Below, piece by piece: positions 9,779 through 64,000 of a stretch of DNA of 64,000 nt. The stretch spans positions 9,176,001-9,240,000 of the forward strand of contig NZ_BHZC01000001.1 in the NCBI RefSeq assembly GCF_003865135.1. Direction: 5' to 3'. The notes beneath the pieces were generated by a model, which worked only from the letters and a program-made list of their open reading frames with translations, did no database searches and was not told the DNA's origin. The translations under genes and the position numbers were made by a program. The DNA is from Streptomyces chrestomyceticus JCM 4735. Lineage in GTDB: Bacteria; Actinomycetota; Actinomycetes; Streptomycetales; Streptomycetaceae. Each line of letters opens with the position of its first letter. Position 1 is the first letter of the stretch.

Positions 9779-9873
9779 TCACCGAACAACTCCGACAGCG
9801 ACGAGCACTACGCCGCTACCGCACCTGGCTGCCTACGACACGAGGCGTTGCCCTGCGATCCCTTCGACGCGGT

Positions 9874-44481: not shown

Positions 44482-44500
44482 CGGCCCGCACCCGGTGAGC

Positions 44501-44942: not shown

Positions 44943-45067
44943 CAGGCAACCGGACAGCGGGGTAAGCGACCCGGGACGCTCGTCCAGCAAATGCGCCGTC
45001 CCTGGTCAGAGCGAGTCAGTAGAGCGGTGCGTTGGGGCGGGCCGTCGTCCTTCGCCTGGTTTCCCGG

Positions 45068-46381: not shown

Positions 46382-46411
46382 GTCGTCTCCTTCTCTGGGC
46401 TGTTGATGGCG

Positions 46412-46425
46412 TCCGGAGCGCTCTC
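46412..46425 (-). promoter_or_regulatory. CebR/BxlR-like LacI-family operator
   Basis: On the minus strand the site reads TGAGAGCGCTCCGG, matching 11 of 14 positions of the streptomycete sugar-repressor consensus TGGGAGCGCTCCCA, with the GAGCGCTC core exact. It is about 31 bp upstream of the GH30 start, a good place for sugar-controlled repression of the xylanase. Confidence 0.6.
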
Positions 46426-46575
46426 AGACGAAGGTTGCCGGGGGAAGGCTTTAGGTTGCCGAGGGAGGTGTGGGCCAGGGAAAGTGGCTGGATCGAGAGG
46501 GCTGACTGGCCGTAGAGCGGCCCCTGAGGTTCGTCGCGAGGTCTTGCGGCAAGCGCCGGTCGGCGGGAAAGGCTT

Positions 46576-47517
46576 TCAGGGAAGCGGGGCGTCCCGGGCG
46601 GCGATCCACAGCTCGTACCACTCCTCGTGAGTGAGTTCCGGCTTGCGGCGTACCGCGTCCGCGCAGGCGCCGATGCGCTCAGGGCGGGTGGTGCCCACGA
46701 CGGGGGTGATCCCCGCCGGGTGACGCTGGAGCCACCACAGGAGAATGGTTTCGGGTGTGGTGTCCTTGCGCCGGGCGAGGTCGGTGACGAGACGGCTCAC
46801 CGGCGTGTCAGTGGAGGTCAGGCGGCCCCGGGCGAGCGCACCCCAAGCCTGGAGCCGGATGCCGTTGGCCGTGCAGTGTTCCAGCGTGCCGGGGGCGAGG
46901 CCGATCCCGGTGGCAGCAGGTGTGTTGACGAGGACCCCCGCTTCCACCCAGTCGCGCCGGGCCAGGCTCATTTCGAGTTGGTTGACGACCAGGGGGACGT
47001 CCACATGGGCCTGGAGGGCGGCGATCTGCGGGCCGCTCACGTTGGAAACGCCGAATTGCCGGACCAGTCCCTGGGCGTGGAGGGAGGACAGTGCCTTGGC
47101 GATGTCCTGCGGGTCGGCGAGGGGGTCGGGGCGGTGCAGGAGGAGGACATCGAGGACGTCCGTACGCAGCCGGGTCAGGCTCTCCTCGACGCGTCGCAGG
47201 ATGCCGGCGCCCCGCAGGTCGTAGTAGCCGGGCCGGTCGCCGTCGGGCAGCCGGATGCCGCACTTGGTCTGCAGGACGACGCGCTCCCGCAGCCCGGGTG
47301 TACGGGCGAGGACCTCGCCGAAGACGGCTTCCGCCTTGCCGTACCGGTAGATGTCGGCGTGGTCGAACGCCGTGATTCCGGCGGCCAGGGCCGCCTCGAT
47401 CGCGGTCTCGGCGTGCTGGATGTCCCGGGGTGTGTACGGCTGGGTGTCCCAGTCGCCGCCGAGTCCCATACAGCCGTAAGCGAGCTTGTGGGTACGGATG
47501 TCGGTTTGTGCGGCCAT
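46576..47517 (-). CDS. Aldo/keto reductase
   Basis: 313 residues, ATG preceded by CGGAG. TIM-barrel AKR: GCMGLGGDW, catalytic Asp/Tyr in DHADIYRYGKAE, Lys in QTKCGIR, His in LLLHRPDP, and the NADPH-binding end GTTRPERI. The type is that of bacterial YdhF-like oxidoreductases. It lies between the GH30 gene and a tandem repeat; a role in sugar metabolism is possible but not shown. Confidence 0.92.
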   Translation of the reverse strand: MAAQTDIRTHKLAYGCMGLGGDWDTQPYTPRDIQHAETAIEAALAAGITAFDHADIYRYGKAEAVFGEVLARTPGLRERVVLQTKCGIRLPDGDRPGYYDLRGAGILRRVEESLTRLRTDVLDVLLLHRPDPLADPQDIAKALSSLHAQGLVRQFGVSNVSGPQIAALQAHVDVPLVVNQLEMSLARRDWVEAGVLVNTPAATGIGLAPGTLEHCTANGIRLQAWGALARGRLTSTDTPVSRLVTDLARRKDTTPETILLWWLQRHPAGITPVVGTTRPERIGACADAVRRKPELTHEEWYELWIAARDAPLP

Positions 47518-47550
47518 GTGGTCTCCGAGGTGCGTGCGGGAGGTGTTGTG

Positions 47551-47643
47551 TATGAGGAGTACCGGATATGAGGAGCGCTGGGTATGAGGAGTACCGGATA
47601 CGAGGGGTGCTGAGTACGAGGAGTGCTGGGTACGAGGAGTGGC
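47551..47643. repeat. 16-bp tandem repeat, nearly six copies
   Basis: Units start at 47551, 47567, 47583, 47599, 47615 and 47631. The first and third are identical (TATGAGGAGTACCGGA); others follow TA[TC]GAGG[AG]G with a variable second half, and the last is partial. Since 16 is not a multiple of three the frame rotates, so it is not a coding repeat. It lies between the aldo/keto reductase start and the end of the GMC pseudogene. Confidence 0.85.
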
Positions 47644-47650
47644 GCGGCGG

Positions 47651-48604
47651 TCAGGTGACCAGGGCTTCGGCGAGCAGCTCGGCGGCGGCCAGGACCGGCA
47701 GTTGCGTGTTGGCGGCGGGCGCGGTCGGCAGGACGGAGGCGTCGGCGACGCGCAGGCCCGCCACACCGTGGACGGCGCCCTGCCCGTCGACCACGGCCCG
47801 CGGGTCGCCCGCCGGGCCCGTGGCGCAGGTCCCACGCGCCGTCCGGGCAGTAGGCGCTGGCAGCCCGGACCAGCATCCGGTTGACGTACAGCTTCCCGGC
47901 GGCCTCCTTGGCCGCGAGGGCCGCGTTCAGTTCCCGGGTGGGGGAGAGGGGGACGAAGACGCCGGGCTGGTCGGACAGGTTGGCGCCGACGCCCGGCAGG
48001 TTCACCTCGCACCGGATGCCGTGCTCCTTCAGGTGCGCGGCCGGTCTGATGCCGCTGCGCATCAGTACGGTGGAGGTGCCGAAGGTTCCGCAGGCCAGCA
48101 CGTGCATGTCGGCCGTCAGCGTCACCTGTCGTCTGCCAAGGACTACGCGCACGCCGTGCGCCCGGCCCGACCGTATGTCGAGGCGGTCCACCAGGGCGTC
48201 GCCGAGGATCGTCAGGTTCGGCCGGGACCGAGTCGCCGGGGCCAACCCCATGCGTTCCATGGCCCGGAGCCGGTACGGTTCGAGCACCGTGGACGACCAC
48301 CGTTCGCCGCCCGCCCGCGTCCACTCGGCGTGGTCGGCGTGCGAACCCCAGGTGTTCCAGGCGCCGTGACGCACGAGGAGCCGCCCAGGATCCGGGCCCG
48401 TCACGTGCCAGTGGCCCGCAGGACCGGAACGCACCTCGTAGCCTCCGCGCACCCGTGCCGCCCAGCCTTCCTGGCCTGCCTCACGCGCGGTACGGGCGCC
48501 GCGGCGAAGTCGGCCGGCGCATAGGCGGCCTCGAAGAGATGCTCGTATGCTTTCGCGTCGAGCGGTGTGGAGCGCCCGTAGGCCGCCGTGCGCCTGATCC
48601 CCAC
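47651..48604 (-). pseudogene. Decayed GMC-family oxidoreductase
   Basis: Pieces of a choline-dehydrogenase-like flavoprotein are spread over three frames. The middle contains ADMHVLACGTFGTSTVLMRS and VNLPGVGANLSDQPGVF; the end, in another frame, reads TCATGPAGDPRAVVDG and VHGVAGLRVADASVLP, the conserved C-terminal His region. The FAD-binding N-terminus is missing, and about 200 residues between AYCPDGAW and TCATGP are deleted at roughly 47821-47837. Not functional. Confidence 0.85.
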
Positions 48605-49095
48605 CTGGCTGACCGACGCCCAACCGGCTGCCCCCCCGTTCGCCGATCACCAGGCAGACGCTCGGTAAGAGCTTGCAGCTCTCATCGGCCCTCTTCAGGG
48701 GCGAACCGGGAACCCGTACCCAGGAGTTCCTGTGCGACGTGGTATACCGATCACCGCCGCCATCACCGTGACCGCACCGACCGGCAGCCGGCTGCCCCTC
48801 GATATCGCGCCATTCATCACTCCGCCAAGCGGTCAGAAAGTGCCCGATACCCGATTCGGCTCCCCTTCACCTGACTGCGGACGGACTGTGCATCACACCT
48901 GGCAGACGAGCTCTCCCAGAAGACCTGCCGCTCGGCCACCGATTGCTGAAAGGTTGCCGTGCTCCGCGACATTGACGGAATCCGGTGGACGCTGCTCGGC
49001 GGTGGTATCGAATGTCTCCCGCCGATATCCGTCGCCAGAAAGAGAGTGACAACTGATCCTCGCGGATAGGCAGCACCACGACTTGAGGAGAGAAT
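48605..49095. other. Intergenic region upstream of GH62
   Basis: 491 bp. A frame from GTG 48732 with AGGAG upstream (105 residues, starting MRRGIPITAAITVTAPTG) is possible but loses coding character after 45 residues, so no gene is called. A short perfect palindrome AGAGCT-TGC-AGCTCT is at 48668-48682. The promoter of the GH62-GH11 unit should lie here. Confidence 0.5.
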
Positions 49096-50625
49096 GTGGT
49101 CACAGGTCACAGAACACCCCGGCGCACACTGTGGCGTCGGCGACGAAGTGTCATCGGGACCGTGGTGACGGCGCTGCTCGCCGGTCTGTGCATCGCCTTG
49201 ACCACGACACCGGCGTCTGCTGCCTCGGTGGACACCAACGCCTGGTACGTCCTGGTGAACCGCAACAGCGGTAAGGCGCTGGATGTCACCGACCGGAACA
49301 CCGACAACGGAGTCGGACTCCAGCAGTACACCCGTAATGACGGGGCCTGGCAGCAGTGGCGCTTCGTCGACTCCGGGAACGGCTACTACCGGCTGCGGTC
49401 CCGTTTCACCGGGAAAGTCCTCGACGTGGCGGGCCGGTCGACGGCCGACGGTGCCCGGATACAGCAGTGGGACGACATGAAGGCGTCCAGCCAGCAATTC
49501 CGCCTGGCGGACTCCGCGGGCGGATACCAGCGCCTGATCAACCGCAACAGCGGAAAGGCCGTCGAGGCCGCAGGCGCCTCCACGGCCGACGGGGCCGCCG
49601 TCAACCAGTACACCGACCGGGGCGGGGCCGGCCAGCAGTGGCAGCTCGTGAAGGCCGGGGCCACCGCGAACTCCCTGCCCTCCTCCTTCTCATGGGTGTC
49701 GACCGGTGTGCTGGCGGGGCCGCGGTCGGACGCGTCGCACCGGCTCGTGTCGATCAAGGACTTCTCGGTCATCCGGTACAAGGGGAAGTACCACGTCTAC
49801 GCCACGACGGCGAACACGTCCGGGAAGTGGAGCCTGGCGTACTTCAGCTTCGACAAGTGGGCGAACGCCGCCTCCGCCACCCAGCATTACCTGGACTCCT
49901 CGGCCATCGGTAACCGTTACGCGGCCGCGCCCCAGGTGTTCTACTTTGCCCCGCAGAAGCTCTGGTACATGGTCTACCAGACCGGCCCGCCCACGTATTC
50001 CACGACGACCGACCCCGCCAACCCCTCCTCCTGGTCCGCACCCAAGCCATTCATCGCCTCGGAACCCGACGTGGTGACGCGGAACAAGGGCAAGGGGCAA
50101 TGGATCGACTTCTGGACCATCTGCGACACCGCGAACTGCTACCTGTTCTTCAGTGACGATAACGGGCACCTCTACCGCGCCCGGACCACGCTCGCGCATT
50201 TCCCCAACGGCTTCGGCGACACCACCATCGTGCTCTCCGACTCCCCGCCCAAGCTCTTCGAGGCGTCGAACATCTACAAGGTGTCCGGCACCAACCAGTA
50301 CCTGCTGCTGGTCGAGGCCATGGGAGCGGGCGGCCGTTACTTCCGCTCCTGGACGTCCACCAGCCTGACCGGGGCCTGGACCCCGCTCGCGTCCACCGAG
50401 AGCGCCCCGTTCGCGGGCAAGGCCAATGTCTCCTTCAACGGGCCCGCCTGGACCAATGACGTCAGCCACGGCGAGCTGGTCCGCTCGGACAACGACCAGA
50501 ACCTGACCGTCGACCCCTGCCACCTGCAATACGTCCACCAAGGACGCTCCCCGAATTCCGACGGCGAGTACTCACAGCTCCCCTATCGCATGGGGCTGCT
50601 CACCCAGGCCAACTCCACCTGCTGA
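49096..50625 (+). CDS. Secreted GH62 arabinofuranosidase with N-terminal ricin-type CBM13
   Basis: 509 residues from a GTG with GAGGAG upstream. Signal peptide to about residue 43 (LLAGLCIALTTTPASAAS). Residues 45-186 are a beta-trefoil carbohydrate-binding domain of three repeats (NRNSGKALDV, FTGKVLDVAG, NRNSGKAVEAAG; each with QQW/QQF). Residues 195-509 are GH62, a five-bladed propeller removing arabinose branches from arabinoxylan: SIKDFSVIRYKGKYHVYAT with catalytic Asp222, and LFEASNIYKV with catalytic Glu389. It probably shares a transcript with GH11 45 bp downstream. Confidence 0.93.
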   Translation: MVTGHRTPRRTLWRRRRSVIGTVVTALLAGLCIALTTTPASAASVDTNAWYVLVNRNSGKALDVTDRNTDNGVGLQQYTRNDGAWQQWRFVDSGNGYYRLRSRFTGKVLDVAGRSTADGARIQQWDDMKASSQQFRLADSAGGYQRLINRNSGKAVEAAGASTADGAAVNQYTDRGGAGQQWQLVKAGATANSLPSSFSWVSTGVLAGPRSDASHRLVSIKDFSVIRYKGKYHVYATTANTSGKWSLAYFSFDKWANAASATQHYLDSSAIGNRYAAAPQVFYFAPQKLWYMVYQTGPPTYSTTTDPANPSSWSAPKPFIASEPDVVTRNKGKGQWIDFWTICDTANCYLFFSDDNGHLYRARTTLAHFPNGFGDTTIVLSDSPPKLFEASNIYKVSGTNQYLLLVEAMGAGGRYFRSWTSTSLTGAWTPLASTESAPFAGKANVSFNGPAWTNDVSHGELVRSDNDQNLTVDPCHLQYVHQGRSPNSDGEYSQLPYRMGLLTQANSTC

Positions 50626-50670
50626 GCCGGACCCGTCTTGCACTCTCATCGAAAAGGAGAAACTTCGGAC

Positions 50671-51363
50671 GTGGACACAAGCACCCCCTCCCGAAAACGT
50701 GAAAGCCGCCGCTTCGGCCTGCTGGTCAAAGGCACCTGCCTGCCGGTGCTGGCGACTCTGTTGTGCCTGCTTCTGCCCGGCACCGCCAGCGCCGACACCG
50801 TCACGACGAACCGGACCGGTATGGACGGCGGCTTCTACTATTCGTTCTGGACCGACAGCCCGGGATCGGTCTCCATGAACCTGGCGCCGGGCGGCAGTTA
50901 CAGCACGGCTTGGAGAAACACCGGCAATTTCGTCGCCGGCAAGGGCTGGGAAACCGGAGGACGCAAGAGCGTCACCTACTCCGGCAGTTTCCATCCGTCC
51001 GGCAACGCCTATCTGGCGCTCTACGGGTGGAGCACCCATCCCCTCGTCGAGTACTACATCGTCGACAACTGGGGCACCTACCGGCCCACGGGCACTTACA
51101 AGGGCACGGTGACCAGCGACGGCGGCACCTACGACATCTATCGGACGACCCGCGTCGACGCACCCTCCATCGAAGGGGCGAAGACCACGTTCGACCAGTA
51201 CTGGAGCGTCCGGCGGTCGAAGCGCACAGGCGGCACCATCACCACCGGCAACCACTTCGACGCCTGGGCGCGCCACGGGATGCGCCTCGGCACCTTCCGT
51301 CACATGATCATGGCGACGGAGGGATACCGGAGCAGCGGAAGCTCGAACATCACCGTGACCTGA
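50671..51363 (+). CDS. Secreted GH11 endo-beta-1,4-xylanase
   Basis: 230 residues from the GTG at 50671 with AAGGAG upstream. Signal peptide to about residue 41 ([13 protein letters not shown]). GH11 jelly roll: [36 protein letters not shown] with nucleophile Glu127, and [14 protein letters not shown] with acid/base Glu217. No binding module. Hydrolyses the xylan backbone, complementing GH62 debranching and GH30 cleavage. Ends at a strong hairpin. Confidence 0.96.
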
Positions 51364-51382
51364 TGTCTCCCGCAGCGATGCG

Positions 51383-51416
51383 GCCTGCCCGTCACCGGGA
51401 ACGGTGACGGGCAGGC
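51383..51416 (+). terminator. Hairpin ending the GH62-GH11 unit
   Basis: A perfect 14-bp stem (GCCTGCCCGTCACC at 51383-51396 with 51403-51416) and 6-base loop, 20 bp past the GH11 stop. The remaining bases to 51682 hold nothing recognised apart from the next promoter. Confidence 0.85.
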
Positions 51417-51682
51417 GCACTTGAGGGCTTTCCCTCCGAGGTCAGGTTGACCAGCGTGGAGCTGTCGAGGTCGACGCCAACCGTGCCCGTCGCCCCCCAC
51501 CTGAACCCCCTCCGCCCCGAGAGGCGAAGTGGGGGCTTGTGGCGCGGCCGTGTGCGTGATCTTGTGTCGTGCGGTGGGGCGGGCGTCGGATCCCGTCCTG
51601 GAGGAGGGGCTGTGCGGACTGCGTGCGTCGGACCGGGCGGGTACCGGGAGTGGTGTGACGGAGCGGCGGGGGTGGCTCGGGG

Positions 51683-52492
51683 ATGAGCCTGTCCGTGAGT
51701 CGCCTGGAGGCGGCCCGCAGTCTGTTGTTCGTGCCGGGCGACCGGCCGGAGCGGTTCGACAAGGCCGTTGCCAGTGGTGCGGACGTGGTCATCGTCGATC
51801 TGGAGGACGCGGTCGCGGCGGCGGACAAGGAGCGGGCCCGCGCCCAGGTCGCCGCCTGGCTCGCCGCGGGCAACAGCGCCATGGTCCGGATCAACGCGCC
51901 CGGTACGTCCTGGAGCGACGAGGACAGTGCGATGGCGGCCGCCTGCGGCGCGCCGGTGATGGTGCCCAAGGCAGCGGACCCCGCGGTGCTGGCGGACTTC
52001 GCCCGCCGTACGGGCGGGAAATGTCCGGTGGTGCCGCTGGTGGAGACGGCGGCCGGCATCGAGCGGGCAGTAGAGGTGTGCGCGGCGCCCGGTGTGGTGC
52101 GGGTCGCGCTGGGCAATGTCGATCTCGCCGGGCAGCTCGGGGTCGCCCATGACGATCACGAGGCGCTCGCGTACTCCCGTTCCCGGCTGGTCTCGGCGTC
52201 GGCGGCGACGGGCCTGAGCGCTCCGGTCGACGGGGTCACCACCAGCGTGCGGGACGTCGACGCCATCGCCGCGGACGTCGTCCGCGCGCGCCGGTTCGGT
52301 TTCGCCGGGAAGCTGTGCGTGCATCCCGCGCAGGTCGCCGTCGTGGCGGAGGGGTTCGCGCCGACCGCGGCGGAGCGGGAGTGGGCCCGGTCCGTGGTCG
52401 CCGCGGGGGAGTCCGTGACCGTGGTGGACGGGCACATGGTCGACAAACCGGTGTTGGAACGCGCCCGCCGCATCCTGGCCGCCGAGCGCTGA
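51683..52492 (+). CDS. HpcH/HpaI aldolase / citrate-lyase beta family protein
   Basis: 269 residues from ATG 51683; GTG 51692 is an alternative. CitE-like TIM barrel: RSLLFVPGDRPERFDKAV, VIVDLEDAV (metal/acid), VMVPKA, VPLVETAAGI with the metal-binding Glu, and ALGNVDLAGQLG. Members cleave or make acyl-CoA thioesters such as malyl- or citramalyl-CoA. No other lyase subunits are adjacent, so a stand-alone malyl-CoA type lyase is more likely than citrate lyase. It precedes the aminopeptidase cluster by 464 bp. Confidence 0.9.
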   Translation: MSLSVSRLEAARSLLFVPGDRPERFDKAVASGADVVIVDLEDAVAAADKERARAQVAAWLAAGNSAMVRINAPGTSWSDEDSAMAAACGAPVMVPKAADPAVLADFARRTGGKCPVVPLVETAAGIERAVEVCAAPGVVRVALGNVDLAGQLGVAHDDHEALAYSRSRLVSASAATGLSAPVDGVTTSVRDVDAIAADVVRARRFGFAGKLCVHPAQVAVVAEGFAPTAAEREWARSVVAAGESVTVVDGHMVDKPVLERARRILAAER

Positions 52493-52956
52493 GCCGCGCC
52501 CGCGGGGGTGCGGGCCGGCCCGGGGCCTGCCGGTGTGCGGGCTCCGTTCCCCGGGAGGGTCCCGAGACTTCCCGGGAGGGATTGCGGTGTCGGGCGGCGG
52601 GGAGAACCTAGCCGGGCCGGGGACGGTCGGCCCATCGACAGATGGCACAAAACCGTCCATGATCTTTCAGACACGTGTATGACGTAAGAGGGGTGGGGGT
52701 CTGCGAGAGTGCCGTTCGCGGCAAGAAGGCGTGCCGCTCGGGGGTGAGGGCCCGTCAGGTGCGGTACCGGCCCGTGCGGGCCTGCGCGCGGCGGCGCGGC
52801 GCCCCGGCTCACCGCACGCCGCTGCCGCCGGCCCGGTGCAAGGCGTTCACCTGCGAAAAGGGGGACTGCCGGGGCGGTGCGGCAGCTTTCTTGGAAAGAT
52901 TTCCGGCCGGTCGGCCCTGCGGGGTGTCGGCTGTCCGCGGTGGAGGAGGAACGTGC
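52493..52956. other. Intergenic region upstream of aminopeptidase P genes
   Basis: 464 bp of GC-rich sequence with no convincing gene. The open frame that enters the aminopeptidase gene from 52675 is an extension without conserved residues. The promoter of the peptidase-LuxR unit must be here. Confidence 0.55.
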
Positions 52957-54420
<1,464 letters not shown>

Positions 54421-54555
54421 CCGCGCCCGCCGCGGCCGGCCGCCTCGCGCCGCCGGCCGCACCACCGGCCGGCCGACAGCGCCGTCGGCCGGCCGTGGCG
54501 TACACCAGGTCCGTTCCCGGTGAGGGCGGGCCATCACGCGAAGGGGGAACGTGCG

Positions 54556-55998
54556 ATGGAACGATCAGACGGCTCGCGCGGAATGCAGAGCCACGACCGT
54601 CAGGTGCCGGCCGCGGTGGCCGAGGCCTTCCGGCACGGATGGGCCGACACGACCCGCCAACTGCCGCCCGTCTCGGGAGCCGCGTGCGCGGCCAAGCGGC
54701 GCGCGGCGCTCTCCGAGCGGTTCCCGGGCGAACGGATCGTCGTCCCGTCGGGCGGGTTCAAGGTCCGCAGCAACGACTTCGACTACCTCTTCCGCCCGCA
54801 CTCCGCCTTCGTCCACCTCACCGCCGAGCAGGGCACCCAGGCGGTACCGGACAGTGTGCTGGTCTTTGAACCCACCGGCAGCGGGCACGAGGTCACCCTG
54901 TTCACCCGGCCGCGCTCGCCGCGCGACGCCGGGCCGGACGGCGCGCACTTCTACAGCGACCGCCGGCACGGCGAGTTCTGGGTCGGCCGGCGCCGTACGC
55001 TCACCGAGACCGCCGACGCCCTCGGCGTCCAGACGGCCGCCCGCGACCGCCTCGAAGGCGCCCTGACCACCGGCGTACCCACCCGTTCGGTACGTGGCCA
55101 GGACACCCTCGTCGACGCGCTGGTGGCCCCGTCGGAGCCGGCCGACGCCGAACTCCTCGCCTTCCTCTCGGAGCTGCGGCTGGTCAAGGACGAGTGGGAG
55201 GTCGACCAGTTGCGCGCCGCCGTGGACCACACCGTCGCCGCGTTCGGCGACGTCGTCGGCGAACTGCCGTACGCCACCCGCCTGGAGCGCGGCGAACGCT
55301 GGATCGAGGGCACCTTCAACCGGCGCGCCCGGCTGGCAGGGAACGGCCTGGGCTTCGAGACCATCGCCGCGGCTGGCGCCCACGCGTGTGTGCTGCACTG
55401 GATGCGGAACGACGGCCCGGTCCGCGACGGCGACCTGCTCCTGCTGGACGCGGGCATCGAGGCCGACTCCTTCTACACCTCCGACATCACCCGTACCCTG
55501 CCGGTCAACGGACGCTTCAGCGACGTCCAGCGCCGCGTGTACGACCTGGTCCACGCCGCCCAGGCTGCGGGCATCGCCGCGCTGCGGCCCGGCGCGCGCT
55601 ACAGCGACTTCCACGAGGCCGCGACGCGTGTCATCGCCGAAGGTCTCGACTCCTGGGGCCTGCGGCCCGCCGCCCCGGGCATGGAGCACAGCGCCGACCT
55701 GTACCGCCGGTACACCGTCTGCGGTACGGGCCACATGCTCGGCCTGGACTGCCACGACTGCGCCGCCGCCCGCAACGAGCAGTACACCGACGGCATCCTG
55801 AAGCCCGGCCATGTGCTCACCGTCGAGCCCGGCCTGTACTTCCAGCCCGACGACCTGACGATCCCGCAGGAGCTGCGCGGCATAGGCGTGCGCATCGAGG
55901 ACGACTTCGTCATCACCGCGGACGGCGCCGAGTGTCTGTCGGCCGGCCTGCCGCGCGGCGCCGACGAGGTCGAGGCGTGGATGGAAGCGTTGCTGTGA
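54556..55998 (+). CDS. Aminopeptidase P, second paralogue
   Basis: 480 residues, ATG with GGGGGAA upstream. Same layout as the upstream gene with all metal ligands kept: LLLLDAGIEADSFYTSDITR, CGTGHMLGLDCHD, VLTVEPGLYF, GVRIEDDFV. The N-terminal domain differs more, including an insert near DSVLVFEPTGSGHEV. The stop codon overlaps the LuxR gene start as GTGA, so peptidase and regulator are translated together. Two adjacent, diverged copies suggest specialised peptide substrates, for instance processing or detoxifying a proline-containing product. Confidence 0.93.
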   Translation: MERSDGSRGMQSHDRQVPAAVAEAFRHGWADTTRQLPPVSGAACAAKRRAALSERFPGERIVVPSGGFKVRSNDFDYLFRPHSAFVHLTAEQGTQAVPDSVLVFEPTGSGHEVTLFTRPRSPRDAGPDGAHFYSDRRHGEFWVGRRRTLTETADALGVQTAARDRLEGALTTGVPTRSVRGQDTLVDALVAPSEPADAELLAFLSELRLVKDEWEVDQLRAAVDHTVAAFGDVVGELPYATRLERGERWIEGTFNRRARLAGNGLGFETIAAAGAHACVLHWMRNDGPVRDGDLLLLDAGIEADSFYTSDITRTLPVNGRFSDVQRRVYDLVHAAQAAGIAALRPGARYSDFHEAATRVIAEGLDSWGLRPAAPGMEHSADLYRRYTVCGTGHMLGLDCHDCAAARNEQYTDGILKPGHVLTVEPGLYFQPDDLTIPQELRGIGVRIEDDFVITADGAECLSAGLPRGADEVEAWMEALL

Positions 55999-58690
55999 GA
56001 GCGCGCAGCCTGCTGGTCGACCAGGTCCACGGACAGCTCCAACAGGCCCGCGCGGTGGCGGTGGTCGGTCCCACCGGGTTCGGCAAGACCGCGGTGCTGG
56101 ACGCGGTGTGCACGCAGTGGCAGTCCGGCGGGGACCCCGTGGTCAGGCTCAGCTCGACCCCTGCCGACGCCCACCTGCCCTACGTCCCGCTCGTGGACCT
56201 GTTCACCGTGTGCCCGGCGGACGTCAGCGGCGAGCTCTCCGACACCCAGCGCGCGACGATCGACTGGGTGCTGCGCCGCGTCACCGGACCCGAACCCGAC
56301 CCGGCCCTCCTGCGCGTGACGGTCCTCTCCTGCCTCCAGGCGTGGGGGCGCCGGGCCCGGCTGCTGCTGGCCGCCGACGACATGCACTGGTGGGGGCCGG
56401 ACAGCCTGGACGTGTTCGGTTTCGCCGCACGCCGCAGCCGCGGCAGTGTGTCGCTGTTGGCGGCGCTGCGGCCCGACGGCCCCCTGGCACACGACGTCCT
56501 GGGCGGCGACGCCGTGGAGATCGCGCTCCCCACGCTCAGCGCGCAGGAGTCGGCCGCCGTGGTGCGCACCTTCAACATCCCGCAGCGCACCGCCGCGCGC
56601 ATCCACACGGCCACCGGCGGCAACCCCCGGCTGGTCTGGGACATCGCCGCCGCACTGGCCCGTTCCGGGCCGCCGGCGGTTCTGGACGCCCAGCCGCTGG
56701 CCCCGTATGCGCGCAAGGCCCTGCGCACGTGGCTCGCCGGACTGGCCGCACCGGTGCACTGGGTGCTGCTGCTGGCCGCGCTCACGGCCGACCCGTCGCT
56801 CGACGTCGTACGCCGCGCGGCGGGTCCGTCCGCCGACGCGGCCCTGGCCGACGCCGAAGCCGCCGGACTCGTCAAGGTGGCCGCCACCGTGGCCTTCGCG
56901 GCCCCGGTCATCCAGGAGGGCATCCTCGCCCAGGCCAGCGGCGAGGCGGTGCGCCAGGCCCACCTGACCCTGGCCACGGCGGCGCACGGCGCCGACGACC
57001 GCCTGTGGCACGAGGCGTGCGCCCTCGCCCCGGCCGAGCTGCCCGCCCAGCTCATTCCGGCGCTGGCCGACGCCGCCACCACCGCGCGCGAGCGGGGCGA
57101 GCACACCCGGGCCGCCGAGTTCGCCCTGCTGGCGGGCGGCCGGACCGGCGGCCCCCGCCACGACCTGCTGGTCGCGGCGGCCCGGGACGCCGAGGCGGCC
57201 GGGCGCTTCGACCTGGCCTGCACGGCCCTGGACCAGTTGGACCGCAGCCGGGCGGTGCCCGCCGCCCGCGCCCAGGCACGGCTCGCCGTCGTCGACGCCG
57301 CCGGGCGGGGCGCCGCCCTGGTCGCGGACGTGGCGGCGCATGCCCTGGCCGAGGCCACCGCCGCCGACGAGCCGGCCCTGATCTCGGCGGCGCATCTGCG
57401 GCTCGCCCACGGCCTGCGGGTCAGCCGGGGATGCCACACCGAGGCCCTGGCACACGCCCAGGCGGCCGAGGAATGGGCCGAGCGCGCGGGCGACGCCACG
57501 ACCCACGCGGCGGCCCTCGCCCTGACCGCGGAGATCGAGCAGGGCCAGGGCTCCCCGGGCCGCACCGCGCTGCTCCGGCGCGCGCTGGCGACGGGCACGG
57601 CCGATGGTGGTACGGCCCGGATGCCCGGCCACCCTGGCCGTACCGCCGTGCACTTCGCCCTGCTGGAGGACGGCCTGGAGCAGGCCGAGCGGCTGCTGGA
57701 CGAGCTGGGTCCGGCGCCCTGCCCCGCTGACCGGCTCTGGCTGCTCGCCGACTCCGTCCACCTTCACGCCCATCGCGGCGAGGGGCGGTCGCCCGCGAAA
57801 AGGCCCACCTCCTGCTGGACCTCACCCGCGACCTGGGGGCCTCGCCCGGACCGCCGTGGTACGCGGCGGCCGCCGCCGAACTGGCCGGCGGCACCCTCGA
57901 ACAGGCCCTGATGTACGCGGACCTGGGCCTGACGGCCTCCCAGGAGGACGCGGACACCGTGTACGCCGCCCACTGCCTGCACGTGTCGGGCATGACGCGC
58001 CTGCTGCTGCGCGACACCGGCGCGGCCCTGGCGGACCTGCTCAGGGTCCAGGACCTGGTGCAGGAGCTGGGCATCGCGGACCCCGCGCAGATCCGGTACG
58101 ACGCCGACCTCGCCGAGGCGCTGGTCGCCGCCGGAGACCTGCCGGCCGCCCGGCACACGCTCGCCGGGGCGCGGCGCCGGGCCCAGGACCTGGGGCGGCG
58201 CGGCGTCCTGGCCTCGCTCGACCGGGCCCAGGCACTGTGCCACGCGGCAGCCGGCGAGTTCGGCCCGGCCGAGGAACTGCTCAACCGGGCCGCGCGGGCC
58301 TTCGAACGGCTCGGTTACCCGTTGCAGCGCGGCCGGGTGCTGCTGGCCCGCTCCAGCCTGGAACAGCGCCGCAGGCGCCCGGCCCGCGCCAACGAGGCGC
58401 AGGCCGCGGCCGAGGCGGTCTTCCGTAAGTCGGGCGCGCCGCTGTGGGAGCCGGCCCGGCCGCAGGGGGACCAGGCACAGCCCTGGCTGGCCGGGCTGAC
58501 CGACGCCGAGCAACTGGTCGCCGAACTGGTCACCCAGGGGCGCGGCAACCGAGATATCGCGGCCGCCCTGTACGTCAGCGTGAAGACCGTGGAGGCGGCC
58601 CTGACCCGCATCTACCGCAAGCTCGAAGTGCGTTCCCGCGTCCAGTTGATGGCGCTCGTCCAGAAGGACGGCCACCTGGCGCGCCGGTGA
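55995..58690 (+). pseudogene. LuxR-type (LAL) regulator broken by one-base frameshift
   Basis: Read through the break it would be about 898 residues. P-loop VVGPTGFGKT near residues 23-32, Walker B LLLAADDMHW, then helical TPR-like repeats, and a C-terminal LuxR helix-turn-helix (NRDIAAALYVSVKTVEAALT, RIYRKLEVRSR). At 57782-57785 the run GGGG needs one more G; with it the frame runs on as AVAREKAHLLLDLTRDLG and continues to the LuxR domain. All sequence on both sides is well kept, so this is a recent mutation or a sequencing slip rather than long decay. It overlaps the peptidase gene as GTGA and would control the surrounding cluster. Confidence 0.85.
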
Positions 58691-58768
58691 CGGCGGCCGC
58701 CCACCGCCCCGCCGGCCAACCACCCGGCCCGGTCGGAAAACGAAGCGCGGCCGTGCCTGGCCGGCCGG

Positions 58769-60121
58769 TCAGTCCGTCCGCCAGCCGACGGTACCCAGGA
58801 TGCTCGATCCGGGGGCCTGCCCGGCCGCGTCACCGGGGGCCGGAACGTCGTGACGGACCACACAGCCGGTCATCCGCCCGCCCATGAACAGCGGACCGAA
58901 CACCCCACGCGTCGAGATGCTCCGGTACGCGCCCAGGTCGCAGTCGAAGACCTCGGCGCCGAACTCGGCGCTGTGGACGGCCTCCTGCGCTATCCAGGTC
59001 CCGGCCCGGCCCGCCTTGGCGATGACGTCCTCCCACGCCGACGCCTCGGTCCGGGCGCCGATGTGCACGTCGAAATTCTGGTCGCCGTCGGACCGCTTCA
59101 CGACGAAATCCGCGCGCCGCTCCGACAGCAGTTCCGGCAGTTTCCATTGCTCGCCCTGGAACTCGACGTCCTCCTCCCACATCCCGCGTGACCAGGGCAG
59201 GTAGCGCTCCACGAAATTCCGGTCGTCCTCGGTCATCCAGTCCTGTCCGGCGGACAGCAGCGCGAAGAGCTGTTTGTTGGCCGCCTGGTAGGAACTCTGC
59301 GGCGTCAGCACGGCCGCGCCGCATTTCCTGATGCGCAGCAGCGGGGCGATGTCCCTCCCCGCGTCGATCCATTCCTGCGGCACGGTCCGCTCCAGCACCA
59401 TCGGGAAGGTGTTTCCGCGGGAGTCGAGCGAGGCGAGGAATTCGTCCGTGTCGAAGTACTGCGCTTCGATACCGGCCTTCCGCAGGGCCTCGACCTCGAT
59501 CTCGTAATACCGGCGGCTGCCCCCTGTGTCGGACAGGAAGACGTCCGGGAGATAGCCGACGAGCGCCACGCGGGGGTCCAGGCCGAGGTCGTCGAGGACG
59601 GCGCGCAGGACGTCGTTGCGGTCCCTGAGGGGGTCGGCGAGCGTGAGGGTGTCCAGGGCCGGGCCCGGCAGCAGTTGCCGCCACAGCTCGTTGAGCAGGT
59701 GGGCGTAGACCTGGCCGCCCGTGGACGAGCAGAAGTTGAACTCGATGAACTTCCACCCGGACGCGGTCCGGATGACGTCCGGCCGGCCCATCACCGTCGC
59801 GTAGGCGTTCTCGGACTCCTCGTCCCCGTAGAACTCCGTCAGCCGCTCGTCGAGTCCCAGGGCGCGGTGCCTGCTCAGGCAGTCCCCGCCCAGTTCCTGC
59901 ACCGCCCGCCGCAGCAGTCCGGCCAGGCGGACGCTGGCCTGCTCCAGGTCGGCGCCCTCGGCCGCGGGCCGCACGACCGGCCCGGCGGGGGCGATCCGGT
60001 CGAACCAGAAGGTCCGGAAGCCCCTGAACTGATGGTCGAAGGCGTTGAGCAGCCGACGCGAGTCCGTCGCGTACGGCCCGCGTGCGGCCGTCACCGGCGC
60101 CGCCGTCGAGGTCTGTTCCAT
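58769..60121 (-). CDS. ATP-grasp-like ligase
   Basis: 450 residues, ATG with AGGAG upstream. ATP-grasp signs: ADFVVKRSDGDQNFDVHIG (nucleotide-binding Lys strand and following glycine loop), GTWIAQEAV (hinge), and an acidic FIEFNFCSSTGGQVYA segment. No close family recognised; the layout is that of stand-alone ligases joining a carboxylate to an amine with ATP. No signal or membrane segment. It is the last gene of the minus-strand operon and converges on the LuxR gene. It may form the peptide bond of the cluster's product. Confidence 0.75.
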   Translation of the reverse strand: MEQTSTAAPVTAARGPYATDSRRLLNAFDHQFRGFRTFWFDRIAPAGPVVRPAAEGADLEQASVRLAGLLRRAVQELGGDCLSRHRALGLDERLTEFYGDEESENAYATVMGRPDVIRTASGWKFIEFNFCSSTGGQVYAHLLNELWRQLLPGPALDTLTLADPLRDRNDVLRAVLDDLGLDPRVALVGYLPDVFLSDTGGSRRYYEIEVEALRKAGIEAQYFDTDEFLASLDSRGNTFPMVLERTVPQEWIDAGRDIAPLLRIRKCGAAVLTPQSSYQAANKQLFALLSAGQDWMTEDDRNFVERYLPWSRGMWEEDVEFQGEQWKLPELLSERRADFVVKRSDGDQNFDVHIGARTEASAWEDVIAKAGRAGTWIAQEAVHSAEFGAEVFDCDLGAYRSISTRGVFGPLFMGGRMTGCVVRHDVPAPGDAAGQAPGSSILGTVGWRTD

Positions 60122-60251
60122 GGTCTTTCACTCCTGCTAGAGGCTGGTGCGGACGGCAGCCGCCGCCCGCTTGCTGCGGCGGCGTGAAGGCGCCGTGCAT
60201 GGCCCCGGGCCTGCGTGTCCGATACCACGGGCCCGGGACTGGTGCTTCGTC

Positions 60252-61682
60252 TCACGGCAGTACGGGCCGCGTCTCCCGTCGGCCGAACGCGGACTCCAGG
60301 GCCAGTCCGGCCCGGAACAGGCTCGCCTCGCCGAACTTGCGCCCCACCAGTTGCACCCCGATGGGCAGCCCGTTCCCGGCGAACCCCAGGGGCAGGGACA
60401 TGGCCGGGTGCCCGGTGACGGCGAACGGGATGGTCTGCATGTCGTTGGCCAGCCGCGGCGGCGGCCAGTCCGTACCGAAGGCGTCGACGCGGGCGGCGGT
60501 GGTCTGGCCGCACGCCGTGATCAGCACGTCGTGGTCGGCGAAGACCCGCCGGTCCAGCGCGGCGGCGAGCTCCTTGCGCACCTGGTACGCATGCTCCAGG
60601 TCGTCCGGGGCGACCCCCGCGCCAGGCATCAGCTTCTGGTAGGTGAAGCGGCCGAACGACCGGGGCGCGCGGCGCAGGTTCTCCTCGTGGACCGCGAAGC
60701 CCTCCGCGATCAGGATGATCCGGCCGCAGGCGTCGAAGACCTCGTACGGCGGCAGCGCGCACTCCTCGACGACCGCGCCGCGCTCCTCCAGATGGACCAG
60801 GGCCCGGTCGATGGCCTCGGTGATCTCCGGGAGGGTGCCCGGGTCCGCGGCGTACCAGGACCGCGAGTAGCCCACCCGCAGCCCCCGCACGTCCCCGGTC
60901 AGCAGGCTGAGGAAGTCGGGCACCGGGGCCTCACGGGTACGGGCGTCGCGGGGGTCGGGCCCCGCGATGACCTGGAGCCCGGCGGCGGCGTCGCCCACCG
61001 TCCAGGCGAGCGGCCCGAAGTGGTCCATGGTGGGCGCCAGCGGGGTGGCCCCGTGGCCGGAGACACTGCCGTACGTCGGCTTCAGTCCGACGGCCCCGCA
61101 GTGGAAGGCCGGGCCGCGCAGCGAGCCGGCGGTGTCGGAGCCGAAGGCGACGCGCAGGAACCCGGCCGCCACGGCGGCCCCCGCTCCCGAGGAGGACCCG
61201 CTGGGAATGTGCTCCCGGTGCCAGGGGTTCTCGGCGGGCGGGAACGGCAGGTCCGTGCTCGGCCCGCCGAAGGCGAACTCGTAGGTGGCCAGCTTGCCCA
61301 GCAGTACGCCGCCCCCGGCCCGCAGCCGGGCCTCGACGGCGCTGTCCTCGGTGGCGACGGCGTCCAGCGTCAGCCGCGAGTGGTTGGTGGTGGGCAGGCC
61401 CTCGGCGTCCAGGATGTCCTTGAGCGCGTAGGGGATGCCGTGCAGCGGACCGCGGTCGACGCCCGCACGCAGCTCCCGGTCCGCCCGCACGGCCCGCCGC
61501 AGCGCGTCCTCGCGGGTGACGAGCACGAACGCGTGCAGGTCGGCGTCGTGTGCGTCGATCAGCCGCAGCGCGTGCTCCACCAGCTCCACCGACGTCAGCG
61601 CTCCGGTGCGCAGCAGCGCTCCGGCCTGGGCGACGGACAGCTCGGTCAGGGCGCCGGGGCCGGCGAGATCGAGGTCAGTCAT
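60252..61682 (-). CDS. Amidase-signature family amidase (AtzE/GatA-like)
   Basis: 476 residues. The Ser-cis-Ser-Lys triad is intact: Lys in GIPYALKDIL, cis-Ser in PSGSSSGAGAA, and nucleophile Ser in GSDTAGSLRGPA. Hydrolyses a carboxamide, or transfers ammonia in Gat-type complexes. Its ATG overlaps the end of an AtzG-like gene by eight bases, a gene order known for AtzE-AtzG amidase complexes, so it probably needs that small subunit. It is not a GatA since no GatB or GatC is adjacent. Confidence 0.92.
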   Translation of the reverse strand: MTDLDLAGPGALTELSVAQAGALLRTGALTSVELVEHALRLIDAHDADLHAFVLVTREDALRRAVRADRELRAGVDRGPLHGIPYALKDILDAEGLPTTNHSRLTLDAVATEDSAVEARLRAGGGVLLGKLATYEFAFGGPSTDLPFPPAENPWHREHIPSGSSSGAGAAVAAGFLRVAFGSDTAGSLRGPAFHCGAVGLKPTYGSVSGHGATPLAPTMDHFGPLAWTVGDAAAGLQVIAGPDPRDARTREAPVPDFLSLLTGDVRGLRVGYSRSWYAADPGTLPEITEAIDRALVHLEERGAVVEECALPPYEVFDACGRIILIAEGFAVHEENLRRAPRSFGRFTYQKLMPGAGVAPDDLEHAYQVRKELAAALDRRVFADHDVLITACGQTTAARVDAFGTDWPPPRLANDMQTIPFAVTGHPAMSLPLGFAGNGLPIGVQLVGRKFGEASLFRAGLALESAFGRRETRPVLP

Positions 61683-61881
61683 CGCTGATCTTCACCTCCC
61701 GCAGCAGCCGGCCCATCCTGCGCAGCGAGCGGTGCCCGGCCAGGACGCCGGGCGCCAGGTCCGGCGGCATCTCGATGCCCCGGGCCGCCAGCGCGGCGGC
61801 GAACTCCCGGTCCGCGTCCGCGTGTTGTGGGTCCCCGGTGTCCCGGGGCCCGGTTGTCTCCTCCGTGCCGGCGTGTGCCAC
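61675..61881 (-). CDS. AtzG-like small amidase subunit
   Basis: 68 residues from a GTG with AAGGA upstream. After a 25-residue polar head the segment FAAALAARGIEMPPDLAPGV, LAGHRSLRRMGRLL matches the short helical AtzG/DUF4089 pattern (small-residue helix, PP-x-PGV turn, second helix) of proteins that bind and stabilise amidases. Too small for an enzyme. Coupled to the amidase by an 8-base overlap and 24 bp after the cyclodeaminase gene. Confidence 0.65.
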   Translation of the reverse strand: MAHAGTEETTGPRDTGDPQHADADREFAAALAARGIEMPPDLAPGVLAGHRSLRRMGRLLREVKISDD

Positions 61882-61905
61882 GTACGGTCGTTCCTTCCCC
61901 TGCGG

Positions 61906-62799
61906 TCAGTGGTGCTCCTGCGCCACCAGATGGGCACAGGTGATGAGGTCCAGCGAGGCGTGCCCGGTGGAGCTGAAGACGGTCGGGCGGCCTCCGAGGC
62001 CGGTATGCCGGCCGTTCTCCAGCGCCTCCAGGTCGATCGCCTTCCGGTGGATCTCGCCCGCCTCGGCCACGGCGATCCCGATGTCCTCGACGACGAGCGT
62101 GGCGGCGGTGAGCAGCGAGCGGGACAGTTCCCGCGACTCGGTGGTGTGCGCCCCCATGCAGTTGATGTGCACGTGCTCGGGAAGCTCCGGCGCGATGGGC
62201 AGCGGCTGTACGGACGTGGTCGCCGTGGAGATCACGTCCGCCGCGTCGGTGGCCTCCCGGGCCGACGCGCTGACCTTGGTACGTACGTTTCCGTCCGCGC
62301 GGCGGATGCGTTTGCACAGCGCCTCGGCGTGCTCCCGGGAACGGGAGTGCACCCGTACCTCGGTGATGTCGCGCACCGCCGAGACCCCCAGGTACTGCTG
62401 CCACGCCTGGACACCCGAACCGACGATCGCCAGGACACCGGCGTCCCGGGCCGCGCAGCGGTCGGTGACCAGCGCCGTGACGGCCGCGCACTTCAGGTTG
62501 GTGACGGCCGCGCCGTCCAGCACCCCCACCAGGTCTCCGGTGTCGGCCGAGAACACCGTGACCACGGAGGTCACGGTCGGCCCGGGGCCGTCCGTGATGG
62601 TGCCCGTCTTGTTGACGCACAGTCCGAGATCGCTGCTGACGGCCGGCATGGACAGGAACCTGGTGCCGCGGCCCTCGTCGACGACCTCCCGCAGCGGCAC
62701 GCTCATCCGGCCCACCGCGCCGCTGCGCAGGCTCTTGCGCATCAGCGCGGCCACGGCCGTCACGTCGGCCACCCCGTGCTCCCTGCCGACGACCGTCAT
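61906..62799 (-). CDS. Ornithine cyclodeaminase / mu-crystallin family protein
   Basis: 297 residues, slightly short for the family (about 320). NAD-binding core LAIVGSGVQAWQQYLG, with VNKTGTITDGP (substrate-binding Lys), AAVTNLKCAAVTAL and HINCMGAHTTESRELSR. Members form proline from ornithine with loss of ammonia, or act as imine or alanine dehydrogenases. Its ATG overlaps the stop of the upstream synthase gene. In this cluster it could supply proline, or reduce an imine formed from the amino-ketone. Confidence 0.88.
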   Translation of the reverse strand: MTVVGREHGVADVTAVAALMRKSLRSGAVGRMSVPLREVVDEGRGTRFLSMPAVSSDLGLCVNKTGTITDGPGPTVTSVVTVFSADTGDLVGVLDGAAVTNLKCAAVTALVTDRCAARDAGVLAIVGSGVQAWQQYLGVSAVRDITEVRVHSRSREHAEALCKRIRRADGNVRTKVSASAREATDAADVISTATTSVQPLPIAPELPEHVHINCMGAHTTESRELSRSLLTAATLVVEDIGIAVAEAGEIHRKAIDLEALENGRHTGLGGRPTVFSSTGHASLDLITCAHLVAQEHH

Positions 62800-64000
62800 C
62801 CGAGGTCCGCCAGGACGTCGAGCAGGTCCGCCGCGAAGCGTTCGGTCAGCTCCGTGGGCATGTCGCCGCGCAGCATCATCCGTACGCCCGCCTGGCCCTG
62901 CGCCACGATCGGGAAGAACATCGCGGAGCAGTAGTAGCCGCGCCGGTACAGCTCGGTCGACAGGCGGACCGCCCGGTCGTTGTCGCCGACCGTGACGAAC
63001 TTGATGTGCGACCCTTCCCCGCGCAGGCCGTGTCCCCTCAGCCGCTCGTCGAACAGCTCGATGTTGCGGGCGAGCTGTTGCTGACGCCGACCCAGCTCCG
63101 GGCCGCGGTGGACCTCCAGGGCGCCCAGCGCGGTCCCGATGGCGGCCGTCCGCAGCCCCTGGGACCAGGCCAGCGGCCCGGACCGGTAGAGGAAGTCGAA
63201 CACGCCGCGGTCACCGACCATGGCGATGCCGCCGGTGGCGCCGAACGCCTTGGCGGTCGAGGCGACGACGATCGTCCGGGCGTCGAGGGTGTCGAAGACG
63301 GTGCGCGCGTAACCCTCGCCGCGTGCGCCGACGGCCGACAGGGCGTGCGAGTCGTCGAGGTAGACGAACATCCCGTAACGGTCCTGCAGGGCCTTGATCC
63401 CCTCCAGGTCCGCCTGCCCGCCGGTGGAGTAGACACCCTCACCGACGTAGGCCACCCGCGGATACCGCTTGCAGATGTCCTCCAGGTACTCCATGTCGTT
63501 GTGCGGACAGGTCAGCACCAGCGTCTCGTCGGCCAGGACGGGCTTGAGGAAGTTCATGGAGAAGTGCGCGAACCGGTCGAAGACCACGACCAGCGGCTCG
63601 CCGTCCGTCAGGTGCCCGGAGGCCAGCAGCGGCAGGATCGCCGCGCTGAGCACTCCGCAGGACACCGACGGCAGCACATGGGCGCCGAAGTGGTCCGAGA
63701 GCTCCTGCTCCAACTGCTCCATGATGCCCAGCCGGATGCGGAACTCGCCCATGGACAGCCCGGTGATCTGCTCCTGCTCCAGGGCGGCCCGACCGGCCTC
63801 GACCACCGTGGGGTGGCTGTTGAGGCCCAGGTACGAACAGGAGGAGAGGTTGGTGAACTCGTGCCCCGTCCGTACGTCGCGCAGCCGGTTCTGGCCGTCG
63901 ACGGCCTCGACCACCAGGCCGAGCATGCCGTGTTTGACGGACAGGCCCCAGGCAGCCTCGCTGGCCGGCACCATCTTGCGGTTGTTGCGGTAGCGGTGGG
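62796..64000 (-). CDS. Alpha-oxoamine synthase-like PLP enzyme (5' end beyond window)
   Basis: At least 401 residues; the frame is open to the right edge and the ATG at 63974 has no ribosome site, so the start probably lies outside. Fold-type I PLP enzyme of the 8-amino-7-oxononanoate synthase / KBL / serine palmitoyltransferase type: CSYLGLNSHPTVVEAG, VYLDDSHALSAVGARG, and the PLP lysine in VVASTAKAFGATGGIAM. Condenses an amino acid with an acyl-CoA, losing CO2, to give an amino-ketone. Overlaps the cyclodeaminase gene by four bases. It is probably not biotin synthesis because no bioB, bioA or bioD is near. Confidence 0.85.
   Translation of the reverse strand, partial: HRYRNNRKMVPASEAAWGLSVKHGMLGLVVEAVDGQNRLRDVRTGHEFTNLSSCSYLGLNSHPTVVEAGRAALEQEQITGLSMGEFRIRLGIMEQLEQELSDHFGAHVLPSVSCGVLSAAILPLLASGHLTDGEPLVVVFDRFAHFSMNFLKPVLADETLVLTCPHNDMEYLEDICKRYPRVAYVGEGVYSTGGQADLEGIKALQDRYGMFVYLDDSHALSAVGARGEGYARTVFDTLDARTIVVASTAKAFGATGGIAMVGDRGVFDFLYRSGPLAWSQGLRTAAIGTALGALEVHRGPELGRRQQQLARNIELFDERLRGHGLRGEGSHIKFVTVGDNDRAVRLSTELYRRGYYCSAMFFPIVAQGQAGVRMMLRGDMPTELTERFAADLLDVLADLG

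Follow-up and report, generated by a model that had tools for sequence, protein, structure and literature searches.

According to the parts of a 2025 paper on which we draw (PMC11943689), no natural ketomethylene pseudopeptides are known besides the arphamenines and the ketomemicins, and in those discovered to date a Phe- or Tyr-derived residue stands at the ketomethylene position. The same parts describe ketomemicin (ktm) clusters that encode an aldolase (KtmA), an oxoamine synthase (KtmB), a dehydratase (KtmC), an ATP-grasp enzyme (KtmD), an amidinotransferase (KtmE) and a dehydrogenase (KtmF), and count Micromonospora sp. ATCC 39149 among the verified ketomemicin sources. Here we compare these systems with a locus in a window of 64,000 nucleotides from Streptomyces chrestomyceticus JCM 4735 (bases 9,176,001-9,240,000 of one 9.38-Mb contig; positions beyond its right edge are given in the coordinates of locus L009). 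At the right end of the window, an initial annotation had proposed an isolated pathway of five genes, encoding an oxoamine synthase (AOS), an enzyme of the OCD family, an AtzG-like protein, an amidase and an ATP-grasp ligase. We consider it rather probable that these genes close an operon of 11, part of a conserved cluster whose family, not yet described, is a sister to the ketomemicin pathway, and that this cluster works by the steps proposed below. The cluster looks like such a sister family, with other finishing enzymes and its own copies of proline-specific peptidases; a literature search of titles and abstract openings, with most subscription journals outside its scope, found no description of it.

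An operon of 11 genes

The five genes were confirmed, and the operon runs past the right edge of the window, where six further genes lie on the same strand. In the order of transcription, it encodes a LeuA-like isopropylmalate synthase (L009:4164-5759), a RipB/MaoC-type hydratase (the dehydratase; L009:3664-4167), an Fe(II)/2-oxoglutarate (2OG) oxygenase (L009:2720-3667), a CitE/RipC-type lyase (the aldolase; L009:1839-2723), a protein of 296 residues with no Pfam or NCBIfam match (unk296; L009:933-1823) and an HSL-type esterase (L009:19-936). Then follow, on the reverse strand of the window, a KtmB-like AOS (62796..64000, its start codon 22 bases past the window at L009:22), an NAD(P)-dependent enzyme of the OCD/mu-crystallin family (OCD; 61906..62799; PF02423, 2e-34), a putative AtzG/GatC-like small subunit of 68 residues (61675..61881), an AtzE/GatA-like amidase-signature hydrolase (60252..61682; PF01425, 2.6e-89) and an ATP-grasp ligase of the glutathionylspermidine-synthetase (GspS) type (58769..60121), assigned by structural match of its AlphaFold2 model. 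Stop and start codons overlap by 4 bp at six of the ten junctions and genes overlap by 8 bp at one; the remaining gaps measure 15, 24 and 130 bp, the longest directly before the ATP-grasp gene.

A self-contained five-gene pathway is ruled out by the six co-directional genes that continue the operon. Among the genes on the right flank, those for the aldolase and the dehydratase are homologues of ktmA and ktmC, as the AOS gene is of ktmB, so that a relative of the core chemistry has already been described. Of the initial annotation, the operon itself holds, its five genes being present as described, and extension to the right did continue it; the statement that the pathway is isolated and lacks a described precedent has to be dropped.

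Relation to the ketomemicin clusters

Our reference was the ktm locus of Micromonospora sp. ATCC 39149 (L169), in which open reading frames were assigned by order, Pfam matches and the published gene list (for KtmE, which has no Pfam match, by place and that list). Three proteins of the cluster have counterparts there: the aldolase is 36 % identical to KtmA, the AOS 50 % to KtmB and the dehydratase 52 % to KtmC. Both cluster types also encode an ATP-grasp enzyme, although of different sequence families: KtmD, which has PreATP-grasp and PGM1_C domains, matches the ATP-grasp protein of the window with a BLASTP E of 0.5. KtmD, KtmE and KtmF gave no tblastn match at 1e-8 in positions 44001-64000 of the window and 38 kb to the right. 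In contrast with ktm, the window type adds LeuA, two Fe/2OG oxygenases, OCD, the amidase pair, a carboxylic acid reductase (CAR), the esterase and M24 peptidases.

A tree of 103 oxoamine synthases (quick method, SH-aLRT supports, no bootstrap, midpoint root) places the AOS of the window in a clade of 27 rows with those of Corallococcus, Burkholderia and the T2 loci defined below (SH-aLRT 100). This clade is sister to one of 43 rows that holds L169 and Salinispora (99), the join being supported at 96, and the AOS of the T3 loci and of Pseudomonas protegens form a separate clade (98). Because A, B and C match, D, E and F are unmatched and the AOS clade is sister to that of KtmB, the cluster, as judged from sequence comparison, shares the carbon-carbon module of ktm yet is not a ktm cluster. 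A plain ketomemicin cluster is ruled out by the absence of KtmD, KtmE and KtmF, and for the same reason the product is not a ketomemicin. Nor is OCD the KtmF of ktm, since KtmF in L169 is an MDR-type zinc-binding dehydrogenase.

Arphamenines A and B (Chromobacterium violaceum) were compared by product type. They resemble the product proposed here in that it, too, would be a ketomethylene dipeptide mimic; they differ in the Phe- or Tyr-derived ketomethylene residue that the cited parts of the 2025 paper give for the known ones (PMC11943689), where LeuA suggests an aliphatic one.

Conservation and types of loci

A search for conserved clusters, an approach already suggested by the initial annotation, found the set syntenic in other Streptomyces, Kitasatospora and Embleya loci. 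This is a real, conserved biosynthetic cluster, in which the ktm carbon-carbon module is joined by other partners than in ktm, and consistently so. With the source genome counted, homologues of the ATP-grasp protein at E 1e-10 or better occur in 26 of 246 genomes of the genus, AOS homologues at 1e-30 in 34 of 392, and unk296 homologues in 7 of 249 genomes of the family, from 3 of 17 genera. The only close ATP-grasp matches outside the source genome are those of G066 (77 %) and G030 (75 %); the others are 26-36 % identical, and the two highest of these cover fewer than 190 residues. In G066 and G030 the whole set is syntenic, including the LuxR regulator, both peptidases, the exporter, CAR and the luciferase-like gene described below, and cluster genes are 64-92 % identical.

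Loci were drawn by AOS likeness (the scan of named genomes gave 80, the best 80 of 342 matching), deduplicated and sorted by gene content into types. Type T1, that of the window, comprises eight loci in Streptomyces, Kitasatospora and Embleya; LeuA, MaoC, 2OG, CitE, unk296, the esterase, AOS, OCD, the amidase and CAR are each present in all eight, the ATP-grasp gene in seven, and an M24 gene in seven, the eighth contig ending early. Type T2 comprises nine loci, among them those of S. klenkii, S. roseoverticillatus, S. purpureus and Nocardia altamirensis, all with AOS, CitE, MaoC, OCD and unk296, eight with LeuA and 2OG, six with the amidase and five with M24. A close homologue of the ATP-grasp protein and CAR were found in none of the nine; seven have a weak match to the ATP-grasp profile (32-61 bits). 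Type T3 is a separate cluster type of 12 Streptomyces loci (e.g., L098, 6160-15929) that all encode AOS, CitE, MaoC, OCD, an ATP-grasp protein, DmpG, DmpF and a Cupin_8 protein, nine of them also M24. All 29 loci of types T1-T3 have OCD, and not one has KtmF.

Outside these types, the seven Corallococcus loci (L126-L131, L134) keep unk296, the esterase, AOS, OCD and 2OG, and no CitE or MaoC was found within the stretch examined; L127 also carries an ATP-grasp gene of the L-amino-acid-ligase type. The locus of Burkholderia ubonensis (L132) shares a large part of the set and carries a Creatinase_N/M24 gene of its own, placed between MaoC and 2OG; it lacks the amidase, CAR and a close ATP-grasp homologue. 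In Pseudomonas protegens (L186, L187) we observed a further version (DmpFG-AOS-CitE-MaoC-OCD).

Features of the enzymes

The AOS matches PRK07505 above its cut-off (9.5e-130) and has the AKAFG and DDSH motifs; the lysine of AKAFG, presumably the one that binds pyridoxal phosphate, is invariant in all 14 aligned sequences. The family thus supports the chemistry first proposed for it, from amino acid and acyl-CoA to an amino-ketone. By sequence, the closest solved enzyme is Alb29 of Streptomyces albogriseolus (PDB 8xha and three related entries, E 8.8e-79 to 5.9e-78), which, according to the parts of its description drawn on here, accepts L-glutamate and several acyl-CoAs (PMC11906848; 8XHA is the Alb29 enzyme).

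The best PDB match of OCD, whose family assignment by PF02423 agrees with the initial one, is a thiomorpholine-carboxylate dehydrogenase (4bv8, 1.3e-26). We aligned 26 OCD sequences (T1, T2, T3, Corallococcus, two Burkholderiales loci, Xenorhabdus and Pseudomonas) with their PDB relatives, which have a T-x-x-R motif (TAKRTAA in mu-crystallin, TSLRTGA in alanine dehydrogenase, TAMRTGA in pyrroline-2-carboxylate reductase). Its arginine, which we take to bind the substrate carboxylate, is kept in all nine OCDs from T3 and Pseudomonas and replaced by lysine (e.g., TNLKCAA) in all 17 from T1, T2, Corallococcus, the two Burkholderiales loci and Xenorhabdus. An altered reaction in this family would, if true, be new enzymology.

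The LeuA of the cluster has the HMGL-like catalytic domain (5.6e-65) and IPMS_D2 (5.8e-32) and matches PRK03739 above its cut-off. The allosteric LeuA_dimer domain gave no match up to E 1 in it or in the one T2 copy tested, and is present in the other LeuA of this genome. Structural matches, obtained by VIA re-ranking of Foldseek's own matches, give unk296 an Fe(II)/2OG oxygenase fold with HxD...H, which makes it the second 2OG oxygenase of the operon. By the same approach, the predicted fold of the ATP-grasp protein, which has no Pfam match, resembles YgiC, YjfC and GspS and bears out the initial call of a ligase; it differs from these E. coli proteins in being 12-16 % identical and in lacking the amidase half. 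Family profiles of unk296 and of the ATP-grasp protein gave chance-level matches only against PDB sequences.

The amidase has its K-S-S motifs in place (YALKD, GSSSG, GSDTAGSLR), as expected from the initial annotation. With a small overlapping partner it resembles the AtzE/AtzG 1-carboxybiuret hydrolase, and it matches biuret hydrolase 6c62 (4.8e-56); it differs in that GatA structures outscore 6c62 and that its match to the AtzE family (4.7e-80, 269.6 bits) lies below the model cut-off of 461 bits. The 68-residue gene is the one that overlaps the amidase by 8 bp, and homologues stand at the same place in relatives. Its identity as AtzG/DUF4089 is confirmed by no model, the protein having no Pfam match up to E 10, none in NCBIfam at 0.001 and chance-level PDB matches only.

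Only 130 bp (60122-60251) separate the amidase and ATP-grasp genes in this strain. A second MFS transporter of ~420 residues fills this gap in the T1 loci of G066, G030, SM11 and Kitasatospora A2-31, and was likewise not found there in MAA19, GAS204B and Embleya. Kitasatospora sp. MAA19 (L112) has an additional M24 gene, 26 % identical to XPP1 (see below), between the two.

Exchange of tailoring genes and linkage to aminopeptidase P

To describe co-occurrence, we used 81 deduplicated loci with A, B and C, counting KtmF at 150 bits or more and KtmD and KtmE at 100 bits or more. OCD is present in 34 of them, KtmF in 22, both in none and neither in 25; KtmD (19 loci) and KtmE (17) never co-occur with OCD. 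M24 genes stand in 22 of the 81, all with OCD and none with KtmF. When all 103 loci are counted, 22 of the 41 that have OCD also have M24, vs one of the 62 without OCD, the latter a 6-kb fragment. The Fisher values are 4.4e-7 and 2.9e-10, which overstate independence, as the loci are related, were drawn by AOS likeness and include some short contigs.

In the window, an operon of two such peptidase genes and a regulator lies to the left of the ATP-grasp gene and convergent to it, on the forward strand. XPP1 (52966..54420, the exact start uncertain; PF00557, 4.3e-50; PF05195, 1e-17) and XPP2 (54556..55998; PF00557, 7.4e-50; PF05195, 7.7e-13) are both of the M24 aminopeptidase-P type with AMP_N and Peptidase_M24 domains; XPP1 is 55 % identical to XPP2 and 68 % to another aminopeptidase P of this genome. 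The gene of the LuxR-family (LAL) regulator, which shares 4 bp at its start with the stop of XPP2, is split (55995-58690) into an N-terminal part with AAA_16 (55995..57911; PF13191, 4.8e-10 in the longer open frame 55194-57911) and a C-terminal part with the GerE domain (57911..58690; PF00196, 2.9e-13). The frame is lost within ~57790-57911 and likeness to relatives ends near 57789; both parts lie in one open frame in two relatives (stop-free over 913 codons in G066 and 926 in G030). The link to Xaa-Pro peptidases drawn by the initial annotation is upheld by this overlap and by the counts above. Chance adjacency is judged unlikely: M24-type genes occur in 197 of 199 genomes of the genus, mostly in one or two copies, yet one stands 2.5-10.7 kb from the AOS (left ends of open frames) in 22 loci. 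G060 and G241 have it within the operon itself, flanked by OCD and the amidase pair.

The metal ligands D, D, H, E and E, as we take these positions to be, are invariant in all 51 aligned M24 rows (two of them truncated repeats, the XPP2 of G066 and G030). In the midpoint-rooted tree, in which some supports are below 95 and long branches are flagged, the cluster-linked copies form at least five groups (T1-XPP1, T1-XPP2, T2, T3a and T3b). T3a and T1-XPP1 stand at an unresolved fork with housekeeping copies of aminopeptidase P, and both T1 groups include copies from genomes without an adjacent cluster. Repeated recruitment of M24 genes beside one kind of pathway is the pattern that self-protection by target duplication would leave. 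That XPP1 and XPP2 protect the producer as duplicated targets of the product is, on these genomic grounds, a plausible explanation that still falls short of probable; that they instead unmask the product seems unlikely. Known arphamenines inhibit aminopeptidase B, as stated in the cited parts of the 2025 paper (PMC11943689).

Proposed pathway and alternative explanations

The cluster probably makes an aliphatic ketomethylene pseudopeptide, or a derived amino-ketone, as an enzyme-resistant peptide mimic; the product, the sequence of reactions, what OCD does and what becomes of the carboxyl group (given CAR) are inferred. The isopropylmalate synthase, having lost its allosteric domain, would make more of an aliphatic 2-oxo acid available; this is probably 4-methyl-2-oxopentanoate, the precursor of leucine. 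KtmA reportedly adds a two-carbon acyl-CoA unit and KtmC is said to dehydrate the alkylmalyl-CoA; their homologues, the CitE-type aldolase and MaoC, would do the same here. Like KtmB, the AOS would condense the acyl-CoA with an amino acid and release CO2; the resulting 5-amino-4-oxo acid would be a dipeptide in which COCH2 takes the place of the amide. OCD may then perform the reductive step in KtmF's place or reduce a derived imine, or, in T1, an F420-type oxidoreductase may do so instead. The two Fe(II)/2OG oxygenases would oxidise the skeleton, and the GspS-type ATP-grasp enzyme would attach an amine or an amino acid. Trimming would fall to the esterase and to the amidase together with its small partner, and export of the product to the MFS protein. 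The aminopeptidase-P copies, linked to LuxR, would protect the producer from a peptidomimetic that binds this enzyme class. If true, a sister family with aliphatic building blocks would broaden a scarce class of protease-inhibitor scaffolds, and the peptidase genes give a concrete, testable target prediction.

A wider version of this scheme is more doubtful: a second, so far unrecognised branch of ketomethylene pseudopeptide formation in bacteria, in which OCD replaced KtmF, aliphatic 2-oxo acids are supplied by LeuA (T1/T2) or DmpF-DmpG (T3), and the products inhibit aminopeptidase P, so that producers recruited M24 copies several times.

Several observations weigh against the proposed pathway. 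Besides the absence of KtmD, KtmE and KtmF, the enoyl-reduction step has no assigned enzyme, and CAR in T1 raises the possibility of an end product other than a peptide mimic. The exchange of KtmF for OCD is no general rule, given the 25 loci with neither, and all seven Corallococcus OCD loci, which lie outside the 81, have a KtmF-like dehydrogenase match (62-79 bits). The M24 gene is missing from the stretch examined in 19 of the 41 OCD loci, including three of the 12 T3 loci, and in four of the nine T2 loci. The LuxR gene carries a frameshift in this strain, be it a true mutation or an assembly error. According to the cited parts of the 2025 paper, ketomemicins 1-3 did not inhibit aminopeptidase B, and the panel listed there does not include aminopeptidase P (PMC11943689). 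Finally, the XPP1-XPP2 pair occurs without such a cluster within 20 kb in G347 (L219) and G003 (L220), XPP2-like genes stand alone in G115 (L221) and G327 (L222), and these cluster-free genes are partly beside genes that resemble, by eye, those of proline or hydroxyproline utilisation.

The capped and trimmed prodrug of the initial annotation survives as a rival that we hold to be improbable: OCD would make a proline-like ring, whose nitrogen would receive an amino-acid cap from the ATP-grasp enzyme; the Xaa-Pro peptidases, as unmasking enzymes and not resistance copies, would take this cap off after export or at need. The substrate class of M24B enzymes fits this, the relatives of OCD by profile include pyrroline- and piperideine-2-carboxylate reductases (below cut-off), and the restriction of M24 genes to loci with OCD, never KtmF, among the 81, together with their place inside the operon in G060 and G241 and between MaoC and 2OG in Burkholderia ubonensis, is as expected. 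However, five of the nine T2 loci have the peptidase and none a close homologue of the ATP-grasp protein, although the weak matches in seven of them leave room for another ligase, and the proline ring itself has no supporting evidence. The full-length CAR of all eight T1 loci suggests a different end, also with a small chance of being right, in which CAR turns the AOS product into a 4-oxo-5-amino aldehyde, the aldehyde cyclises to an imine, and OCD reduces this imine, so that a small cyclic amine results instead of a pseudopeptide. OCD belongs to a family of imine reductases, and lysine in place of the arginine presumed to hold the carboxylate would suit a substrate without the usual one. This reading has to contend with the nine T2 loci, which retain OCD and AOS and lack CAR, and with the ATP-grasp ligase and amidase, which better suit a peptide-like product.

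It is very improbable that the region is catabolic, degrading an amino-keto or proline-peptide compound, with peptidases, amidase and lyases feeding central metabolism and the peptidases being mere neighbours. The CitE and MaoC proteins do show likeness, below cut-off, to RipC and RipB, which belong to itaconate degradation. Elsewhere, the neighbours of the XPP pair or of XPP2-like genes include OCD homologues and genes that by eye resemble those for the breakdown of proline or hydroxyproline. Yet the AOS belongs to a family that forms carbon-carbon bonds by decarboxylation, a LeuA duplicate without allosteric domain, the ATP-grasp enzyme, CAR, the MFS exporter and LuxR point to synthesis, and the nearest characterised relatives are biosynthetic. 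At L220 and L221, an OCD homologue (35-36 %) and genes resembling, by eye, proline racemase lie near the XPP-like peptidases, and at L221 and L222 flavin-oxidoreductase-like genes do; at L220-L222 these peptidases perhaps serve the use of hydroxyproline peptides.

Neighbouring genes

To the right of the operon and divergent from it, on the opposite strand, lie the MFS exporter (L009 ~6052-7440) and the full-length CAR (L009 ~7701-11234; NF041592, 1509 bits against a cut-off of 1300). They are followed by the luciferase-like oxidoreductase (L009:11328-12371, strand -), whose nearest models are F420-type, matched below their cut-offs. On the left, a second CitE/HpcH-type lyase, CitE2 (51683..52492, forward strand; PF03328, 1.6e-31), is a possible cluster edge; it adjoins the cluster in G066 and was not found in the contig of G030. 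Just left of the cluster, at 49096-51363, are a GH62 gene with a ricin-type lectin domain and a GH11 gene. A further CAR-like gene, ~48 % identical to the CAR of G066 and G030, lies ~15 kb further right (~9266723-9270337; L010).

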